NCBI GenBank assembly: GCA_018058545.1
Contig: JAGOZU010000023.1
Location: 1-39,668 of the forward strand
DNA length: 39,668 bases
DNA from: Promineifilum sp.
Lineage (GTDB): Bacteria > Chloroflexota > Anaerolineae > Promineifilales > Promineifilaceae
Direction of reading: 5' to 3'
The notes below the pieces were generated by a model. That model was not told the origin of the DNA. It ran no database searches and was given only the letters and a program-made list of their open reading frames with translations. Below are positions 7,693-17,782 of the stretch, one piece after another (positions within the stretch are counted from its first letter, which is position 1; every line of letters starts with the position of its first letter). The position numbers and the translations under genes were made by a program.

Positions 7693-9249
7693 TCAGGGGA
7701 CGAGCGCCGGCATGTAAGACTGCCTGGGGATGATCCCTGAAGCGGCCATCTTCCAGGCGGTCAGCGAATCGATCCGGCCCCAGCCGTAGTCATTGTTGGG
7801 GATGCTGGTTGCGTCATCGGTCCCGCAAAACGACGGACCCTTGACAGTGAGCCTGAGAGCCGTTTGCTTGATGATCGTCTCCAGATCATCAACCCGTCCT
7901 GCCAGATCGGGATCGGCCGAGATTAACAACGCCACCAACCCCGCGACATGGGGCGCAGCCATGCTGGTACCGCTGAGATATGAATATCCGGAGTTAGGGA
8001 CGCTGGAGTGAATGCCGACGCCGGGAGCCATGATATCGGGCTTTGTGCGGCCGCTGCCGTCGGCCGTGACAGGCCCTCGACTGCTGAATGACGCGCGCGA
8101 GTTGTCATTTTCTGTCGCTCCGACTGTGAAGGAGTCGCTGTAGATGGCGGCCGGTGTATCGACAGAGGCGCATCTGCTTCCGCTGTTGCCGGCCGAATGG
8201 ACGGTCATGATGCCGGCGGCGCGCACGGCCGCGACCACAGACTGCAGGACTCCCGAAGTGGTGCACCCTTCATCCGGCCCGCAAGACCACGAGTTGTTGA
8301 TCACATGCGGCGCCATGGCCGGGTCGCCGTCGGTGAAGGAATCGCCGCCGGTGGGGTAGGGGGCGATGAACCATTCGTAACACTCGGCGTAGGTCACGGG
8401 CGATCCGACGCCATCTTCCATGTTGCGACAGCCGATCCACCTGGCGCCAGGGGCCATGCCGATCCCCAGGCCGGGTTCCTTGCCGACCATCGTCCCCATC
8501 GTATGCGTGCCGTGGCCGTGGTCATCACAGGGTTGCGTGGCATCGAGGCCACAACGGTTCGACCCATTGCCGGACAGGTCATCGTGAATGGCGTCATGCC
8601 AGTTGTAATCATGGTCGGCCGTCGTGCCGTCCCAGCCGCGATACTGGTTGAGGAGAGCGGGATGCTGCCAATCATAGCCGGTGTCCTGCCCTCCGATGAC
8701 GGCGCCCTGGCCGGTGAAGCCCTTGTTCCACACCATCGGCGCGCGGACGATGGCGATGTTCCATTCGATGCCGGTTTGGCGCGGGGCAGATTGGTCGGCT
8801 ACCGGTTGCGGCAAATCCATCCGCCGCCATGTATTCGCATAGATGTGGTACACGTCGCCGCGGGAGGCCATTGCCTTGAGGATGCCCCGGTCGCCGCGAA
8901 CCCAGACCATGTTGTTGACCCAATAGGGGCGATACGTGGCCCCGTGTTGGTCGAGGATGGCCCGCAATGGGGCCTGGGTGCGGGCGGCCAGCTCCGTCAA
9001 GGTGTTGTAGACGTAGCGGCCGCGCTCGGTCTTGTCGCTGAATCGGCCGGCGGAACTCAGATCGGCTCGCTCGGTGAGCACGACCAGAAACTCGGTCGGG
9101 GCATTGTCGCGCGTCTCCGCCAGCAACGCCGCGTCGACCTTGGCCATCCAGTTGTCCGATGCTCGCGTGACGGATGAGGTGTGAACCATGACCAGAAGGG
9201 CCGCCATGACGGACAGGAACAGCATGAGACGCAGCATAATCCGTTTCAT
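7693..9249 (-). CDS. Secreted subtilisin-like (S8) serine protease
   Basis: The product is 518 aa. Residues 1-30 form a signal peptide (KR, then a hydrophobic stretch, then ASD). An inhibitor-I9-like prodomain spans about 35-140. The catalytic domain carries D189 (GGQDTG), H246 (GHGTHT), oxyanion N355 (SAGNSG) and S429 (GTSMAAPHVAG). The protein ends shortly after the domain with a short tail containing SYMPALVP, like linker motifs in the lamin-tail/PLD protein at 12165-14573. GGAG sits eight bases before the ATG. It starts 36 bases after the real stop of the CUAEP radical SAM gene, so co-transcription is likely. Expected location is the cell surface or medium. Confidence 0.93.
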   Translation of the reverse strand: MKRIMLRLMLFLSVMAALLVMVHTSSVTRASDNWMAKVDAALLAETRDNAPTEFLVVLTERADLSSAGRFSDKTERGRYVYNTLTELAARTQAPLRAILDQHGATYRPYWVNNMVWVRGDRGILKAMASRGDVYHIYANTWRRMDLPQPVADQSAPRQTGIEWNIAIVRAPMVWNKGFTGQGAVIGGQDTGYDWQHPALLNQYRGWDGTTADHDYNWHDAIHDDLSGNGSNRCGLDATQPCDDHGHGTHTMGTMVGKEPGLGIGMAPGARWIGCRNMEDGVGSPVTYAECYEWFIAPYPTGGDSFTDGDPAMAPHVINNSWSCGPDEGCTTSGVLQSVVAAVRAAGIMTVHSAGNSGSRCASVDTPAAIYSDSFTVGATENDNSRASFSSRGPVTADGSGRTKPDIMAPGVGIHSSVPNSGYSYLSGTSMAAPHVAGLVALLISADPDLAGRVDDLETIIKQTALRLTVKGPSFCGTDDATSIPNNDYGWGRIDSLTAWKMAASGIIPRQSYMPALVP

Positions 9250-9285
9250 CGATCGCTCCAGATTCCGGGCCGGGGCCTCGGTTTG

Positions 9286-10761
9286 CTATTCAAGCGTTAG
9301 CCGATCAAACTGATCGACCGTGGGTTCCGCTCAACAGAACCAGTCTTCGGTTAGCCGGGGCGGGGTTGGCCGGATGCGGCGCGCCCGAGGGCCGGCCAGT
9401 CGCGGATTCGGCATCGGACGATTGGCCATGCCGTAGGCCAGTCGCTCCACGGCGGTGAACGCCGTCGCCTGATCGCCCGCGGCCGCACTTTCGGCGATGA
9501 CGGTCACGCGCGCTTGCAGCTCGTCCATGCGCGGGTCGGGGTGTCGCCAGGCGTGAGAGAAGTTGGCCGGGTCGAGTTCGCCGAACCACCGGCCTGAGTC
9601 GCCTTCGAGCAGGGCGCTGTTGGGCGGAACCAGCAGCCGAATCGACAACTGCACGATGGGCACGTTGGGGATCATGCCCCGCTCGCGAATCCAGGCCAGC
9701 ATGTCGATGTAATCGTCGAGACTCGTCCAGGGTGTGAACGGCAGCCAGGTCGGCTGGACGGGCAGGCGAGCCGCCTCCAGGATGTCCAGCGCGCGCTCCA
9801 TATCGGCGCGGGTGTGGCCCTTGTTGAGCCGGTTCAATATCGGATCGGACACGCTCTCGAAGGCCGACACGACGAAGCTCGCGCCCAACGCGCGCAACTC
9901 GGGGATGACGGCCTCCCGCTCGATGATATGTTCGACCTTGGTCGTGAAGTCGAAAGTCAGCCGCGGGAATTCGGCGTGCAGCGCTCGGGCCACCTTCAGG
10001 GCATGCCCCGGCCCGTTGAGAAAGTCGGGATCGCCGAAGGTGATGTGCTCCGCCCCGACCGCGACCTGCTGGCGAATGTCGGCCATCACCGTCTCGAAGG
10101 GTATGATGAAGAATCGGCCGCCATAAACCGGCACAACCGGGCAATGCCGGCATTCATGCAGGCAGCCGCGGCTGGTCTCCACGTAACCCGACAGGCTGTA
10201 GTGTTCGTTTTCCAGGTAGCGCGCGTAGTGGTTCAGGCCTGGTAGTCCCGCGCGGTCGGGCAGGGGGAGGGCGACGCGCGCCAGGTGGGGCGAAGCGCGA
10301 CGGGTTCGCGTCGACACGCCGGGGATAGCCGGAATGTCGGTGTCGGGGAGTCCGGTAAATCTCCCGTCTCCGAGGGCTTTCACCAAATCCACCAGCGGCT
10401 CCTCGTACTCTCCGGCGATGACCGAATCGGCCGTCGTCCCCAGCAGGTAATCGGCGTTGAGCCAGGCATACAGGCCGTAGAAGCAGATATGGGCTGTCGG
10501 GTTGAGCGCGCGAACATCCTCGGCGGCGCGCACGCCTAACCGCAGGGCGGTGTGCATGGGCGCGGCGATGCCGATGAAACGCGCCCGGGCCACGGCCTCT
10601 TTGGGCAGCGTGTCCACCGACAGGTCGACCGGCCGCACGGCGAGGCCCGCCTCGCGCAAGGCGGCCGCGGGCCAGGCGAGGCTCAGCGGCTGGTGGCCCA
10701 TCTCGTAGCAGGCCAGGAGCAGGATATCGGCCGTCGCGGCCGCCGGATCGACCGCGCTCAT
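9286..10761 (-). CDS. B12-binding radical SAM selenoprotein, CUAEP-tail family
   Basis: The protein is 491 aa if the in-frame UGA at 9333-9331 is read as selenocysteine. The N-terminal ~150 residues look like a B12-binding domain. The radical SAM cluster motif is C200-x3-C204-x2-C207, with GDPDF and VVSAFES further on. The frame up to UGA ends LTEDWFC; reading through gives U-A-E-P and then ten more residues (TVDQFDRLTL plus Glu) to a UAG at 9288-9286. Cys-Sec-Ala-Glu-Pro at the C-terminus is the defining tail of the CUAEP/CCAEP radical SAM family, whose reaction is unknown. A bacterial SECIS-like hairpin follows the UGA. The start overlaps the yggX stop (ATGA), so both are translated from one transcript. 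An ordinary annotation would stop at 9331 and lose the tail. Confidence 0.92.
9299..9333 (-). promoter_or_regulatory. Recoded UGA (Sec) and bSECIS hairpin
   Basis: After the UGA (9333-9331) and 20 bases counted to the loop, the RNA can form a 9-bp stem: GGUCGAUCA (9319-9311) with UGAUCGGCU (9307-9299), including two G-U pairs, around the 3-base loop GUU (9310-9308). Bacterial SECIS elements lie within about 40 bases of the UGA and have a small apical loop with a G in the first two positions; both hold here. SelB binding is inferred. Confidence 0.8.
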
Positions 10762-11072
10762 TTTCGCGCCGGGCCGCCCTTGCCGCCGGATACGGGCGCT
10801 CCGGCCACGCCGGCCGAGGCTCCCTCATTGAACAAAAAGGCTTCCATCTGCTCGAATAGGAATTCCTGTGCCCGCGGGTCGGCCATGTTCAGCCCGTAAT
10901 GATTGATGATCAGTCGGGCCTGGGTCTGCCACTGGCTATAGGCGAACTTGGATATCTCGTTGTAGATGCGTTGCCCCAACGGGCCGGGAAATGGCGGCCG
11001 ATCAAGCGCCGGCAACTCAAATTCGAATTTGGCGCATTGCACCACCGTGATCGTTTTTGTTTCTCTCGTCAT
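10758..11072 (-). CDS. yggX: YggX-type Fe(II)-trafficking protein
   Basis: The product is 104 aa. It contains the YggX family core in order: a Cys near the N-terminus (VVQCAKF), RPPFPGPLGQRIYNEISK at about 25-42, AYSQWQTQARLIINHYGLN, and EQMEAFLF. YggX proteins take part in iron trafficking and protection of iron-sulfur clusters from oxidants. The C-terminus has a short Gly/Ala/Lys-rich extension not seen in the enterobacterial protein. The ATG at 11072 has only a weak ribosome site. It is the first gene of the transcript that continues, with a 4-base overlap, into the iron-sulfur radical SAM selenoprotein, a context that fits an Fe-S maintenance role. Confidence 0.9.
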   Translation of the reverse strand: MTRETKTITVVQCAKFEFELPALDRPPFPGPLGQRIYNEISKFAYSQWQTQARLIINHYGLNMADPRAQEFLFEQMEAFLFNEGASAGVAGAPVSGGKGGPARK

Positions 11073-11131: not shown

Positions 11132-11209
11132 AACGACGCGCCGATTCTCAGGCAGATCGGGTGGTTCGCAAGAGGCTACCTCTTTTTCAATCCATCTACG
11201 AGCTTGAGG

Positions 11210-11215
11210 TATAAT
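11210..11215 (+). promoter_or_regulatory. -10 element of the formyltransferase-type gene
   Basis: A perfect TATAAT lies 33 bases before the ATG at 11249. No good -35 is visible at 16-18 bp. It places the transcription start near 11222 and so excludes the in-frame TTG at 11204 as a start. Confidence 0.45.
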
Positions 11216-11248
11216 GGCCATCATGTGGGCAGGGACGGGCAGCAGGAC

Positions 11249-12160
11249 ATGTTGAGGCTCCTCTTTTTCGGCTTGCCTGTGGGCGTGTCGGCCGCCATGC
11301 TGGCCGGTTTGCTCGATAGCGGGGTCGAGGTCGTCGCCGTCGTCGTGCCTGCCGCGTCGGTTCCCCACCTGACTCCCGATCCCGCGTCGCCGTTTGCCCG
11401 TCTCCAGCCGCGGTCGTCGCTTGACCTGCAACTGTCCGGGGCGTCACCGGCCGATACGTTGAGCGTCGCCTGGGCGGCCGGGCTGCCGGCGCTGGCCGTG
11501 CGTGATTTCGGGCATCCCGACACCCTGGCCGCGTTGTCGGCGCTGGCGGCCGATGTCGCCTGCGTGGCTTGCTTCACCCGGCGCATCCCGGCGACCGTCC
11601 TGTGTCTGCCGCGCCATGGCTTTCTCAACCTGCATCCCTCGTTGCTGCCCAACTATCGCGGCCCGGAGCCGCTTTTTTGGCAGCTGCGCGACGGCGCGCC
11701 GGCGGGAGTGACGGTGCACGTTATGGATGAAGGCCTGGATACCGGCGATATCGTCGCTCAGGCCGCGGTCGCCTTGCCCGACGGCATCTCCGGCCCGGAG
11801 GCCCAGCGGCAACTGATGCTGGCCGGGCTTGACCTGTTGCGCGGCGTCTTGGCCGACCTGTCGCGAGGGATCGTTGCCCGTCGACCGCAACCGCCCGGCG
11901 GCAGCTATCAGGGCTTTCCCGCCGCGAGCGACTTCGTCCTGTCGACGAATTGGCCTGCGCGGCAAGCCTTCAACTTCATGCGCGGCACGGCTGACTACCG
12001 CCTGCCTTATCGCCTCGATGTCGCCGGCCAGACCCTGTGGCTCGGCTCGGCTGAATCCTGGTCGCCCGAGGCCGATCCGCGGCCGCCCGTCCTGCGGGAA
12101 GGCGACTACCTCCTTATCCGTTTCAATCCCGGCCTGTTGCGCGCCCGCCTAAGTCGATGA
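11249..12160 (+). CDS. Formyltransferase-fold protein (methionyl-tRNA formyltransferase-like)
   Basis: The protein is 303 aa from the ATG at 11249. The N-terminal domain matches the formyl_trans_N family: catalytic N127 and H129 (LNLHPSLLPNYRG, 126-138) and D164 (EGLDTGDI). The C-terminal ~75 residues look like a reduced version of the Fmt C-terminal domain. The N-terminal nucleotide-binding part is divergent (FFGLPVG...). It may be Fmt itself, which formylates initiator Met-tRNA, or a paralogue acting on another amine such as a sugar nucleotide; the absence of def nearby leaves this open. The downstream secreted-protein gene starts four bases after its stop, so the two are probably co-transcribed. 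Confidence 0.75.
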   Translation: MLRLLFFGLPVGVSAAMLAGLLDSGVEVVAVVVPAASVPHLTPDPASPFARLQPRSSLDLQLSGASPADTLSVAWAAGLPALAVRDFGHPDTLAALSALAADVACVACFTRRIPATVLCLPRHGFLNLHPSLLPNYRGPEPLFWQLRDGAPAGVTVHVMDEGLDTGDIVAQAAVALPDGISGPEAQRQLMLAGLDLLRGVLADLSRGIVARRPQPPGGSYQGFPAASDFVLSTNWPARQAFNFMRGTADYRLPYRLDVAGQTLWLGSAESWSPEADPRPPVLREGDYLLIRFNPGLLRARLSR

Positions 12161-12164
12161 GGTC

Positions 12165-14573
12165 ATGAACATCGCCCGCCCACTCCGGTTACTGTTGGTG
12201 ATGGCCCTCGGCGTGACGGCCGTCCGGCTGTGGGGTGGCGCTCTGTCGGCCGCGTCGCCGGCCGTCGTGCTCATCGATAGCGTCCTCTATGACGGCTATG
12301 CGCTCAACGACGCCGACGAAGCGGTGCGATTGATCAATGTCGGGGATTCGGCCGTCGAGTTGGGCGGCTGGCGGCTGTCCGATGGGGCGTCATCGGCCGC
12401 CCTGCCGCCGGTGATTCTGGCCCCCGGTGCGATGGTATGGCTGACGGGCAATGCCGAGGCCTTTCGCGAGCAGTTCGGCCATAATGCCGATGTGACGCTG
12501 GGGTCGTGGCCCGGCTTCTCCAACGCGGGCGACGAGGTCCTGCTCCTGGATGCCGATGGTAAGCCGGTTGATGCACTCGTCTATCTGGGCGGCAACACCG
12601 GCCTGGCCGGCTGGCAAGGCGACGCCGTGGAACCCTATCGCGTGTCCGGCCTCTTTGCCGCCGAGGGGCAGGTGCTCTATCGCCAGCGGGATCAGGTGAC
12701 CGGCCGGATCGTGTCCGACACGGATTCCGCGGCCGACTGGGCACAAGAGACGAGCAGCGCCATCGACGGCCGCAAGGTGCGCTATCCCGGCTGGGAGACC
12801 GAGCGGTTCTTCTTCCCGGCGGTCATCACGGCCACGGCCACGCTGACGATCGCCGTCGCCCCCGATAACGCCTTTGTAACTCTGCGGCGCGAGGTGGACA
12901 ACACCGACACATCGATCCGGCTGTCGTCGCTGATGCTGGAGAACGTCGCCTTTGGCGAGGCTTTGGCCGCCGCCGCTCGTCGCGGCGTCGAGGTGACGAT
13001 CCTGCTGGAAGGCAGCCCGCCCGGCGGCATCACCGATCAGGAGAGGTTCGTCTGCGACCACATCGAGAAGGCCGGCGGGGCGTGCTGGTTCATGATCGCC
13101 GACTCGGACCATCGCATTCACGATCGCTATCGCTTCATGCACGCCAAATATATGGTCATCGATGACCGGGTCGCGGCGATCGGCAGCGAAAACTTCAGCC
13201 CCGACAGCCTGCCGGACGACGACAAGAGCGACGGGACGTGGGGGCGGCGCGGCGTGTTCCTGCTGACCGACGCGCCGGGGGTGGCCGCGCACCTGGCGGC
13301 CGTCTTTGCCGACGATCTGGACACGGCCCATAGCGACATCCACCGCTGGTCGGCGGCCGACTCGGTCTATGGCGCGCCACCGCCCGGCTTCGTCCCCGTC
13401 ACGACGACCGGCGGCGACGGCTATGCCGTGCGTTTCCCCGCCCCCCTGACGATTCCCGGCGTCCATGCGTTCGAGATCGTGCAATCCCCCGAGAACGCCC
13501 TGCGCGATGTCGACGGCTTGCTGGGGCTGATCGGCCACGCCGGGCAGGGGGATCGATTGCTCATCCAGCAGCTCTCCGAGCGGCCGTATTGGGGGACGAC
13601 GAGCAGCAACCCGATGGCCGATCCCAACCCGCGCCTGGAGGCCGCCATCACCGCCGCCCGCCGTGGCGCGACAGTGCGCCTGATGCTCGACAGCTACTTC
13701 GACGACCCCTCAAGCCCGGTCGGCAACGCGGCCACCTGTGCCTACGTCAACGGCATCGGCCGCGCGGAACGGTTGTCGCTGCGCTGCGAATTGGGCAATC
13801 CGACCGGCCTGGGCATCCACAACAAGATGGTGCTGGCCCGGATCGACGGCCGGGGATACGTCCACGTCGGCAGCATCAACGGCACGGAACTGTCCAACAA
13901 GGGCAACCGCGAGATGGCCCTGCAGGTGCAGTCGGATGAGGCCTATGCCTATCTGGCGGGGATGTTCCTGGGCGATGTGGAGCGCGTGGCCTACCTGCCG
14001 CTGGCGATGGCGAACTTTCGCGGGGCGGCGAATCACGTGCTCATCAGCGAGATCGTCTATGATACGACCGGCCCCGACGAGGCGGAGTTTGTGGAGCTGT
14101 ACAATCCCACGGGCTTGCCGGTCGATATGAACGGCTACGGGCTGAGCGACGCGGTGTATCAGACTGATTTTGAGGACATGCGCCTCTTCCCGCCGGGGGT
14201 CGTCATTCCGCCCTACGGGACGCTGGTGGTGACCATCTCGGCCGCGGCCTTTCGCGCGGAGTTCGGCGCGTCGCCCGACCTGGAGATCGTCGACAGCGAC
14301 CCGGCCGTGCCGGACATGATCGACGATCCGGCCTGGGGCGACCCGGAGGCGCTATTCCAGCTGGCCAACAGCGGCGACGAGGTTCTGCTGTGGCGGATCG
14401 GGTTGCTGGACGTCGTCACCTACGGCAACGGCTATCATTCGGCCGTGGTTGGCTGCCCGCTGCTCGCTCCCCCGGCCCGCAGCCTGCAGCGCGACCCGTA
14501 TTGGGACGACACCGACAACTGCCCCAGGGACTTTCGTGGGTGGCCGTTTCCGAGTCCGGGGCGGGTGCCGTAG
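12165..14573 (+). CDS. Secreted lamin-tail / phospholipase D-like protein
   Basis: The product is 802 aa with a signal peptide at residues 1-30. A lamin-tail (LTD) domain spans about 34-150. Two phospholipase D-type modules follow: HAK...D at H326, K328, D333 with GSENFS, and HNK...D at H552, K554, D561 with GSINGTELSN. The second motif has two extra residues before the Asp. A second LTD domain covers about 622-790. Short aromatic-Pro linkers, FFFPAV near 216 and AYLPLA near 609, sit at domain borders. PLD-fold enzymes cleave phosphodiester bonds in phospholipids or nucleic acid; LTD domains are probably adhesive. Substrate is unknown. The ATG follows the formyltransferase stop by four bases and has GAGG close by. 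Confidence 0.9.
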   Translation: MNIARPLRLLLVMALGVTAVRLWGGALSAASPAVVLIDSVLYDGYALNDADEAVRLINVGDSAVELGGWRLSDGASSAALPPVILAPGAMVWLTGNAEAFREQFGHNADVTLGSWPGFSNAGDEVLLLDADGKPVDALVYLGGNTGLAGWQGDAVEPYRVSGLFAAEGQVLYRQRDQVTGRIVSDTDSAADWAQETSSAIDGRKVRYPGWETERFFFPAVITATATLTIAVAPDNAFVTLRREVDNTDTSIRLSSLMLENVAFGEALAAAARRGVEVTILLEGSPPGGITDQERFVCDHIEKAGGACWFMIADSDHRIHDRYRFMHAKYMVIDDRVAAIGSENFSPDSLPDDDKSDGTWGRRGVFLLTDAPGVAAHLAAVFADDLDTAHSDIHRWSAADSVYGAPPPGFVPVTTTGGDGYAVRFPAPLTIPGVHAFEIVQSPENALRDVDGLLGLIGHAGQGDRLLIQQLSERPYWGTTSSNPMADPNPRLEAAITAARRGATVRLMLDSYFDDPSSPVGNAATCAYVNGIGRAERLSLRCELGNPTGLGIHNKMVLARIDGRGYVHVGSINGTELSNKGNREMALQVQSDEAYAYLAGMFLGDVERVAYLPLAMANFRGAANHVLISEIVYDTTGPDEAEFVELYNPTGLPVDMNGYGLSDAVYQTDFEDMRLFPPGVVIPPYGTLVVTISAAAFRAEFGASPDLEIVDSDPAVPDMIDDPAWGDPEALFQLANSGDEVLLWRIGLLDVVTYGNGYHSAVVGCPLLAPPARSLQRDPYWDDTDNCPRDFRGWPFPSPGRVP

Positions 14574-14738: not shown

Positions 14739-14803
14739 GTAGCGCACGCTGACAGCTCGCCGCCCAAACACGGCCGTCGTTATTCGTTTTTCGCTTTGTG
14801 CTC

Positions 14804-14809
14804 TATAAT
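14804..14809 (+). promoter_or_regulatory. -10 element directly in front of the NACHT gene
   Basis: TATAAT ends six bases before the ATG at 14816, leaving no room for a ribosome site. If used, the mRNA would start at or next to the ATG (leaderless). No clear -35 is visible. Confidence 0.5.
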
Positions 14810-14815
14810 TTCTCC

Positions 14816-17782
14816 ATGAACGAGCCGGATCCTTCCAGTCCTGATCTCAACAAGTCCATATTCACCGCCCTGATCGATGCTTTTAAGGGGCTTCCGCCTA
14901 TCCTGAGCTATGGCGGCCTCATCACCGTTATTGTCGCTTTTATTCTCGTACTCACCGGCGTTTTTCAATGGACGCTTCTTATCTATCCTGCCCTGGTTCT
15001 GGTGGTCTTCCTGTTCTATACGCTCTATAAGGACAAACGCCACTATGATCTTGAGGGAAAGAAAGAGGACAACAGACATATAGAAGCGATGCATACCCCC
15101 CCGCCAGGTGCTGAAGAGAAACAGGAAGGCCAGCAAGCAACCCCACCTCCTCCACCCGAGGGGGATAAGGTTTCCGCTGATGAATGGCAACGTCGCTACA
15201 TGACTTATCTGGCCCGACTGAACAGCTATCCCCCCTATACGGCCCTCATAGACATCCGCGAGGCGGGGTTCAGGGAAACCAAGATCGCGCTGGAGCGGAT
15301 ATACACCAACCTGGACGTGCCCGCGGCCGACCATCTGCATCGGTTGCCCAAAAAGACCATGACCGATCTCGATGGGCCGGAGTTGGACGAGTTAGGCATG
15401 GAGCAGCGAGAATCGGTACTGAAAGCTATCAGTCGCCCGGAAAATAAACGACTGGTCATTCTGGGCGCGCCCGGCTCGGGTAAATCGACCTTGGTCAGTT
15501 ATCTCGCCCTTTGTCTGGCCGGGGACCATCTGAAGGATGAGAATATTAATCAGGCCTTATTGCAGGAAGGGGGTTGGAATCTGTCAAATCTTCACCTGAT
15601 ACCTGTCCCGGTGACCTTGAGGGCTTATGCCGCCGGGGGGCTTTCAAAGCAACAGGATCTGTGGGCGTATATCGAGACCGTCCTGGCCGGGGCTAATCTG
15701 GCCGGTTATGCGCCGCACCTGAAAAAACAGCTGTCGCAGGGCGGCCTGCTCCTCCTGGATGGGTTGGATGAGGTGGACAACGCGCCGAAGGTGCGCAAGG
15801 CATTGAAGGAGCAGATCGAGCAGTTCGCCGACACATTCCCGAATGTACGGATCATCGTCACCAGCCGCCCCTACGCCTATGGCGCCGGCTGGGAACTGAG
15901 CCGTTTCTCCGTCACTCGCCTGCTGGATTACAGACCGGAACAGATAAACGCTTTTATCGATCAATGGTACACGGCCACCGGCGAAGACCCCGCGCTTGGT
16001 CTTGGGCCCGACAAGGCCAATGCGTATGCAGATAGCCTGAAAGCCCAGCTCAACCCGAAATATCGAAGCACCCACAGCCTGCGCGAACTGGCAAGTAATC
16101 CTCTCCTGTTGACCATGATGGTCTACATCCATCGCGGCCGCGAAGGGGGTGAACTTCCTCATCGGCGTGAGGAACTGTATCGCCTGTGCATCAACCTGCT
16201 GCTTGAAATGTGGCAACGCTCCAAGAACATCGATCTGCTCCGTGAATTGAACATCGACAGGGAAAAACTGGAAAGGGCGTTGCAGGAAGTAGCCTTTGAA
16301 GCGCACTTGAAACAATCCGCCGGGAGCAAAACGGCCGATATCACCGGCGAAACGCTCGCCGGCAAACTGCACAAGTACCGGGGGCAGGACTCGACCGCCA
16401 AAACCGAGGATCTCATTGAATACGTGCGCAACCGGTCCGGACTGCTGCAACAGCATCATACCAAAGCTTCTGAAAACGACGACGATCTCTACCGCTTCCC
16501 CCATCGCACCTTTCAGGAATACCTGGCAGCTCTCTATCTGCTGCGTCACCGCTTCCCCAAAGAGTTGGCCGAACTGAGCCGCAACGAGACCGGCCGCTGG
16601 CGCGAAACCTTGCTACTGGCCGCCGCCAGCCAACGGAATGTTCCCTCCAATGGCTGGCTCCTGATCGATAAGCTCTGCCCTGAATCGCCACCCGCGCCGG
16701 ATCCCTCCAAGTCCGCAAGTAAAAATCCTTATGATATTTCAGGAGGATTCCTCGCCGGACGGGTGTTGATCGAAGCCGAACTGCTCAACCCGGATAACCA
16801 GTTGGACGGTGACGAAATCAGGAAAAAGGAACGGGTGCGTCAATGGCAAAAGTACATTGTCACTTGCGGCGAGATGTTGCCATCCGACCGCGCCGACGCC
16901 GGCGATCTCCTGGCCGAGCTGGGCGACGACCGGCCGGGGGTGCTCGCCTGCGACGCGATGCAACTGTGCTACGTGCCGCCCGGCGACTTCTGGATGGCCG
17001 ACAAGCAAGCGAGCCGCGAAGGGCACACGCTTTCATTCCTGGACAAGCCCTACTGGCTGGCCCAATATCCCGTCACCGTGGCTCAGTTCCGCGAATTTGT
17101 TCACAGCAACCCGGATTTTAAACCGGCCTTTGGTGACAGACCTCTTTCATCACCGGGTAACCGGCCGGTAGTCACCGTCAACTGGTATGACGCCCTGACC
17201 TTTTGCGAGTGGCTCAACCGGCGCTGGCAGGCGCATCTGCCGCCGGGCTACCGCGTCACCTTGCCCAACGAAGCGGAATGGGAGAAAGCGGCGCGGGGCG
17301 GCCTGGTTGTCCCGGTCGCTCCCCACGTCGAGACGGTTCATTCCCTCAAGGAAACGCTTGCCGCGCCACCGGCCACGATGCCCAACGAACCCCACCGGCG
17401 CGAATATCCCTGGGGCGACGAGCCGGAAAAGCCGGGAACGACCAGCGACGTGTACCGGTCCAATAACAAAGCGGCCGGGGTTGACCGCCCGACGGCTGTC
17501 GGCAGCTTTCCCAAGGGAGTCGGCCCGTCGGGCTGCCTGGATATGAGCGGCAACGTCTGGGAATGGACGCGCAGTTATTATGGCAAGGAAGGCCCCTATC
17601 GCCTGTCGGCCGAATACGAAACCGTCAGCCAGGGCAATCGGGACCGCATACTTATATGTGGCGGTGCGTATTATAGCGACTACACCGGCTGCTCCGCCCG
17701 CTACTGGATCGGCCCGCTCAGCCTCTTCTACGACGCCTACGGGTTTCGTGTGGCGGTGTCCCCATTTGTCTCTGAACTCTGA
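14816..17782 (+). CDS. Membrane-anchored NACHT NTPase with C-terminal FGE/C-lectin-fold domain (likely DGR target)
   Basis: The product is 988 aa. Two hydrophobic segments at about 33-50 and 52-70 anchor it, followed by a Pro/Glu-rich linker to about 120. The NACHT module has P-loop GAPGSGKST (217-225), Walker B LLLLDGLDEVD (311-321) and TSRPYAYG (349-356), then an alpha-helical region to about 680. Residues 709-985 are a formylglycine-generating-enzyme/sulfatase-modifying fold with NEAEWEKAARGG (818-829) and GNVWEWTRS (912-920). Instead of the enzyme's active-site Cys arrangement, the last segment (949-978) is rich in Tyr, Asp, Ser and Leu encoded by NNC codons, as in DGR variable repeats. 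NACHT proteins are STAND-type sensors; here the C-lectin-like end would bind a ligand and the NTPase signal (inference). The ATG is preferred over a GTG at 14798 upstream of the TATAAT. Confidence 0.92.
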   Translation: MNEPDPSSPDLNKSIFTALIDAFKGLPPILSYGGLITVIVAFILVLTGVFQWTLLIYPALVLVVFLFYTLYKDKRHYDLEGKKEDNRHIEAMHTPPPGAEEKQEGQQATPPPPPEGDKVSADEWQRRYMTYLARLNSYPPYTALIDIREAGFRETKIALERIYTNLDVPAADHLHRLPKKTMTDLDGPELDELGMEQRESVLKAISRPENKRLVILGAPGSGKSTLVSYLALCLAGDHLKDENINQALLQEGGWNLSNLHLIPVPVTLRAYAAGGLSKQQDLWAYIETVLAGANLAGYAPHLKKQLSQGGLLLLDGLDEVDNAPKVRKALKEQIEQFADTFPNVRIIVTSRPYAYGAGWELSRFSVTRLLDYRPEQINAFIDQWYTATGEDPALGLGPDKANAYADSLKAQLNPKYRSTHSLRELASNPLLLTMMVYIHRGREGGELPHRREELYRLCINLLLEMWQRSKNIDLLRELNIDREKLERALQEVAFEAHLKQSAGSKTADITGETLAGKLHKYRGQDSTAKTEDLIEYVRNRSGLLQQHHTKASENDDDLYRFPHRTFQEYLAALYLLRHRFPKELAELSRNETGRWRETLLLAAASQRNVPSNGWLLIDKLCPESPPAPDPSKSASKNPYDISGGFLAGRVLIEAELLNPDNQLDGDEIRKKERVRQWQKYIVTCGEMLPSDRADAGDLLAELGDDRPGVLACDAMQLCYVPPGDFWMADKQASREGHTLSFLDKPYWLAQYPVTVAQFREFVHSNPDFKPAFGDRPLSSPGNRPVVTVNWYDALTFCEWLNRRWQAHLPPGYRVTLPNEAEWEKAARGGLVVPVAPHVETVHSLKETLAAPPATMPNEPHRREYPWGDEPEKPGTTSDVYRSNNKAAGVDRPTAVGSFPKGVGPSGCLDMSGNVWEWTRSYYGKEGPYRLSAEYETVSQGNRDRILICGGAYYSDYTGCSARYWIGPLSLFYDAYGFRVAVSPFVSEL
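17660..17749 (+). other. Candidate DGR variable repeat (VR)
   Basis: These codons for residues 949-978 run GGC GGT GCG and then include TAT TAT AGC GAC TAC, later TAC TGG ATC GGC, and CTC AGC CTC TTC TAC GAC GCC TAC before GGGTTTCGT. Most putative variable positions are NNC, as expected when AAC codons of a template are mutated at adenines. Leu as CTC twice stands out because CTG is the usual Leu codon here. The invariant frame (GG at the start, GFRV at the end) matches C-lectin-fold DGR targets. Confidence 0.65.

Follow-up and report, generated by a model that had tools for sequence, protein, structure and literature searches.

A CUAEP-tail radical SAM selenoprotein from a Chloroflexota genome and gene partners that suggest what its family might make

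A reading frame in a 39,668-nucleotide stretch of a Promineifilum sp. genome (the window; contig JAGOZU010000023.1) raises two questions: whether an in-frame UGA close to its end is read as selenocysteine (Sec), and what the radical SAM enzyme so completed might make. The gene occupies 9286..10761 on the minus strand and begins with an ATG at 10761-10759, from which 476 residues can be read up to the UGA (9331..9333). The initial annotation had described a frame that apparently stops at this UGA after WFC and reads on to a UAG 42 bases later, and the sequence agrees: the codon is preceded by PPRLTEDWFC and followed by 14 codons encoding AEPTVDQFDRLTLE, and then by TAG at 9288-9286. That annotation also gave the span of the gene correctly but left out its strand. 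With the UGA read as Sec at residue 477, the product is a protein of 491 aa with the tail PPRLTEDWFC-U-AEPTVDQFDRLTLE. Its radical SAM domain (PF04055) scores above the cut-off and contains the cluster motif C200-x3-C204-x2-C207 (10141..10164, minus strand), the three cysteines of which are invariant in the 39 sequences aligned.

The family to which this protein belongs is not in doubt. In a profile search against NCBIfam it matched NF040546, the “CUAEP/CCAEP-tail radical SAM (seleno)protein” model, with 691.1 bits against a cut-off of 500 bits, over residues 13-486 of 491 and profile positions 1-467 of 468; the kind of protein is therefore already known. The second-best family was ArsL (NF040542; 290.7 bits, cut-off 450 bits) and the third reached 37 bits, while the PADLOC defense models gave no match to the protein. 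The view that a Cys-Sec-Ala-Glu-Pro tail defines a radical SAM family is borne out by this score and by the tail itself, with WFC-UGA-AEP in the region 9342-9322 kept in relatives. Members such as WP_012643191.1 of Thermomicrobium roseum match over their full length and have the same tail and the same Sec/Cys position, with no essential difference. The description of the gene as a hidden selenoprotein is apt for automatic gene callers but not for the NCBI model, which itself says “(seleno)protein.” The UGA makes automatic annotation shorten such proteins, so that the functional tail is absent from databases. The T. roseum record already carries the CUAEP family name, but the CDS listed on plasmid NC_011961.1 (7935-9371) stops at the UGA while the tblastn match (8001-9389) runs through it; the stored protein thus lacks the very tail to which its name refers. 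No paper naming the family turned up in the literature collection searched for CUAEP, NF040546, and RCCLKC, and the earlier characterization of it as one of unknown reaction still stands.

The first question turns on the host and on the relatives. It had been proposed that the host must possess Sec machinery, and a search of the window's genome (3.6 Mb, 185 contigs, 98% complete) recovered selA (540 bits), selB (342 bits), and selD (374 bits), each above its curated cut-off, along with a tRNA-Sec above the Rfam gathering score that ARAGORN also calls as tRNA-SeC with anticodon UCA. The selD gene (L011 1092-2024) is a selenoprotein gene itself, with a single in-frame UGA early in its sequence (SCAGUASK) and its own hairpin; thus, Sec decoding is required by the genome's own machinery. 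Co-occurrence with selA is by itself weak evidence, because the gene is present in 321 of 400 sampled Chloroflexota; it was found in 50 of 52 genomes with the UGA form (counted by eye). In the 119 relatives whose tail can be read, the Sec position holds UGA in 88 and a Cys codon (TGC/TGT) in 31, with nothing else seen, and none ends at the UGA without an AEP-type tail. Neither of the two observations that the initial annotation had named as refuting its reading was thus made. The codon is followed by AEP, or by SEP in two loci (L053 and L100), in the general pattern [PH][RHQG][LI][TS]Ex-W-[FY]-C-[U/C]-[AS]-EP. This conservation in every one of the 119 excludes a chance reading. A tree of 109 family members, computed with the tail left out, implies about 9 changes between Sec and Cys, at least 7-8 of which are forced by well supported branches. 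Such repeated exchange, as read from these sequences, is the textbook signature of a functional Sec residue and points to a reactive chalcogen at residue 477. The early branches, from Acidobacteria and Poribacteria, are of the Sec type, so that the Cys forms look secondary.

The bSECIS hairpin (9299..9319, minus strand; GGUCGAUCA-GUU-UGAUCGGCU) is just as first drawn, with a 9-bp stem and a GUU loop, starting 11 nt past the UGA. Its loop begins 20 nt past the UGA with an invariant G; in the hairpin of selD the loop starts equally far from that gene's own UGA and also begins with G. Folded as a single sequence of 61 nt it has an unremarkable energy (z -0.79), and the Rfam search of the window returned nothing at the gathering score; hence the element is convincing only by comparison and was judged in that way. 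In an alignment of 43 distinct UGA sequences, gapless from the UGA, with 500 shuffles as a control, the 6-bp core is paired in 87.6% of cases versus 68.1% in shuffles, cells changed on both sides of the core number 58 versus 19.6, and the covariation score is 0.564 versus 0.225. None of the 500 shuffles was as high by any of these measures, and the covariation score collapses when the partner is shifted by one base. Positions G24, C22, and G28, counted from the UGA, are invariant or nearly so, compensatory changes occur in four inner pairs, and RNAalifold recovers the identical helix unaided. Of the 80 distinct Sec sequences, 74 form 4 or more of the 5 core pairs, as against 8 of the 25 Cys sequences, and the hairpin energies average -9.7 and -4.4 kcal/mol, respectively; a relatedness-corrected test of this association comprised only 7 pairs (3.4 the same way, 1.0 the other) and was not significant (p 0.6). 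The comparison strongly supports a model in which SelB would bring Sec-tRNA to the UGA, directed by the hairpin that follows. That the UGA is instead a true stop, and the tail beyond it a chance reading, has a negligible likelihood: the isolated hairpin is ordinary for its base composition, but the UGA/Cys alternation throughout the relatives, the covarying hairpin, and the full set of Sec machinery all stand against it. At the level of sequence comparison, the gene is thus confirmed as encoding a CUAEP-family radical SAM enzyme with selenocysteine, from an Anaerolineae-type Chloroflexota genome.

The second question, what the enzyme might make, can be approached through its gene partners. Across 400 Chloroflexota genomes, an ATP-grasp gene is found in 96 of 98 genomes with CUAEP versus 32 of 302 others, with a Fisher p of ~1e-61 that, like our other co-occurrence p-values, ignores the kinship of the genomes; the two CUAEP genomes without it are 84% complete. 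It is also found in all 16 further CUAEP genomes checked, mostly from outside Chloroflexota (among them Poribacteria, an Acidobacterium, and a Deltaproteobacterium). In our survey of the neighborhoods of relatives, the ATP-grasp gene lies downstream of CUAEP in 19 loci. Often the two genes adjoin each other, in one of three ways that differ between families: the ATP-grasp gene is convergent with CUAEP in G108 and G293 (in the latter with a gap of 14 bases), co-directional and downstream in G118, G086, G134, and G073, and co-directional and upstream in G010, G023, and G125. These three arrangements offer support that does not depend on the kinship-blind p-value. In the window's own genome the partner sits on a separate contig (C134:19072-20280; L132:6013-7317), and it matches both ATP-grasp_4 (111 bits) and LAL_C2 (57 bits) above their cut-offs. 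The best solved relative of the partner is the L-amino acid ligase BL00235 (PDB 3vot; E 3.9e-37), with which it has full-length similarity and the LAL_C2 domain in common; the partner differs in being genetically tied to CUAEP. Gene linkage and co-occurrence thus support a common pathway for the CUAEP enzyme and an ATP-grasp protein of the L-amino acid ligase type.

Two further partners are seen beside the gene in the window. The start codon of the radical SAM gene lies in a 4-bp ATGA overlap with yggX (10758..11072, minus strand), encoding an Fe(2+)-trafficking/oxidative damage protection protein, and a divergently transcribed gene (11204..12160, plus strand) encodes a divergent Fmt-like formyltransferase in which N-x-HPSLLP, the formyltransferase catalytic motif, is intact. 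Among relatives, yggX is directly upstream of CUAEP in 37 loci and the Fmt-like gene is divergent from it in 35. The Fmt-like gene is present in 62 of 98 Chloroflexota genomes with CUAEP versus 4 of 302 others, and close, high-scoring YggX homologs are found in 47 genomes with CUAEP and in 2 others of 301 sampled. A block of ATP-grasp, yggX, and fmt stays intact even where it is far from CUAEP (L134, L135, L136, and L144). Linkage and co-occurrence support the assignment of the Fmt-like formyltransferase and YggX to the CUAEP pathway in most Chloroflexota. Four other neighbors were considered and left out of the core partners because each is limited to one group: gamma-glutamyltransferase to one Thermomicrobia clade, YbaK to one family, and DUF169 and SDR to Poribacteria. 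In the latter phylum (L090, L093-L099, L102, and L106), genes for a DUF169 protein and an SDR oxidoreductase come after CUAEP in the same orientation. Elsewhere in the window, the 802-aa product of 12165-14573 combines lamin-tail domains with a phospholipase-D-type nuclease domain and weakly resembles DrmC, and the 994-aa product of 14798-17782 has an FGE-sulfatase domain at its C terminus in addition to a NACHT/STAND-type NTPase region.

The nearest characterized relative, ArsL of arsinothricin biosynthesis, is reported to attach SAM's 3-amino-3-carboxypropyl group to As(III) (PMC8552651; reviewed in PMC12159101). CUAEP proteins have in common with it the core fold family, an adjacent Cys pair at the C terminus, and, in several clusters, an ATP-grasp gene nearby. 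When six CUAEP and four ArsL/RCCLKC proteins (32-36% identical between the two families) were aligned with MAFFT, the only cysteines invariant in all ten rows are the three of the cluster and C476-C477, which were aligned with the ArsL pair although the ArsL tail is ~40 residues shorter. The protein nonetheless falls outside the ArsL model: its score of 290.7 bits is below the cut-off, and it lacks the RCCLKC tail, of which only the CC pair is common to both. ArsL ends in KRCCLKC, whereas CUAEP proteins have WFC[U/C]AEP with ~40 more residues before the tail and Sec in most members. The genomic settings also differ: an ArsL would be expected beside arsenic genes (arsM, arsN1, and arsR), and in Pseudomonas amygdali arsL stands among arsQ, arsM, and arsN1, whereas CUAEP has no arsenic operon. 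A tblastn search with ArsM, ArsN1, ArsQ, and ArsR found matches in only 2 of ~90 CUAEP loci, one with a distant arsM (L066) and the other, from a groundwater Chloroflexi MAG (L071 4324-6986), the only one with arsM and arsR beside an fmt-yggX-CUAEP block. With arsenic genes so nearly absent, simple arsenic detoxification is disfavored, and a family of this breadth would more likely make a regular metabolite. On the ArsL side, the plasmid-borne RCCLKC-tail clusters of Priestia, Alicyclobacillus, and Pantoea (L117, L118, and L119) contain an ATP-grasp gene with ATP-grasp_4 domains, a hint of arsenic-containing dipeptides. The ATP-grasps of the two kinds of cluster are only 22-25% identical, so that the pairing could have arisen twice. 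A further comparison is offered by ArsS, which forms a carbon-arsenic bond (PMC12159101). The ArsS-type radical SAM selenoprotein (TIGR04167), which appears in reviews of selenoproteomes (PMC9312934 and PMC13188914), likewise shows Sec/Cys alternation but is not among the families matched by the 491-aa protein. As to the Cys-Sec pair, which the initial annotation had proposed as a possible redox or metal site, the analogy with ArsL points to a site that would bind a metalloid or other soft atom over one with a simple redox role.

Taken as a whole, a pathway of an ArsL-like CUAEP selenoenzyme, an ATP-grasp ligase, a formyltransferase, and YggX is our best explanation, which we hold tentatively and at somewhat short of even confidence. 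The enzyme would most likely act like ArsL: the C-terminal pair, Cys-Sec or Cys-Cys, would hold a soft, thiophilic atom such as arsenic, selenium, or sulfur, and cleavage of SAM would transfer its 3-amino-3-carboxypropyl group to that atom. The product would be a non-protein amino acid, which the ATP-grasp ligase would then couple to another amino acid to give a dipeptide; the formyltransferase would perhaps cap an amine, and YggX might guard the iron-sulfur cluster or help to supply it. The ArsL-like reaction is favored because ArsL scores 291 bits versus 37 bits for the next family, because of the shared CC pair, and because some ArsL-type clusters have an ATP-grasp. Against it stand the few arsenic genes, the score far below the ArsL cut-off, the limited identity, and a tail modeled at middling confidence. 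In its full form, with CUAEP, ATP-grasp, Fmt-like, and YggX proteins joining the aminocarboxypropyl group to a soft element on the Cys-Sec pair and carrying the resulting element-organic amino acid to a (formylated) dipeptide, this would be an undescribed pathway present in about a quarter of the sampled Chloroflexota genomes and in Poribacteria; that so specific a scheme is right throughout is unlikely.

The same partners might instead serve cobalamin-type or 5′-deoxyadenosyl radical chemistry (e.g., C-methylation or dehydration), with the Cys-Sec pair as a redox relay or radical quencher, an alternative that we consider possible if somewhat unlikely. The AlphaFold2 model (39 sequences; pLDDT 88, pTM 0.89) is consistent with it, in that the nearest solved folds are AprD4, MgmA, OxsB, TsrM, and CysS, with AprD4 and the cobalamin enzymes MgmA, OxsB, and TsrM at Z 24-27, and the N-terminal domain has a weak match to the B12-binding domain PF02310 (26.6 bits, below the cut-off of 32.1). 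Yet in sequence the protein stands far nearer to ArsL than to any of the cobalamin radical SAM families (291 versus 37 bits), and the CC pair is common to CUAEP and ArsL. The predicted fold, which matches cobalamin and non-ArsL radical SAM enzymes alike, leaves the reaction undecided.

Quite unlikely is a gene set that makes a small metal-chelating peptide or an iron cofactor, the radical SAM enzyme, ligase, and formyltransferase building the ligand and YggX handling the iron. In its favor, some known iron chelators carry N-formyl groups, yggX and CUAEP are translationally coupled in the window, and in most Chloroflexota loci yggX adjoins CUAEP or the ATP-grasp gene. However, YggX and Fmt are absent from the Poribacteria loci examined and from many Chloroflexota with CUAEP and ATP-grasp, and no genes for taking up or exporting siderophores were observed beside the loci. 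Very unlikely is a role of the C-terminal Sec/Cys as a sacrificial or relayed donor with which the enzyme inserts selenium or sulfur into a substrate: the adjacent Cys-Sec pair does lie on a flexible tail (pLDDT ~65 in blocks 461-480 and 43-68 over the last 40 residues) and MiaB and RimO are likewise near in fold, but a second cluster motif is absent and Cys repeatedly replaces Sec with the partners unchanged, where a selenium payload would mean a changed product.

While the CUAEP family was already covered and named as a (seleno)protein by the NCBI model, its gene partners give a first suggestion of what it might make. The family gains a testable context, with a near-constant ATP-grasp ligase, two more partners, and a characterized cousin, ArsL, that has a paired-chalcogen tail. 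If the ArsL-like reading of the CUAEP enzyme is true, many uncultured bacteria would use selenium in making an unusual amino acid or peptide.
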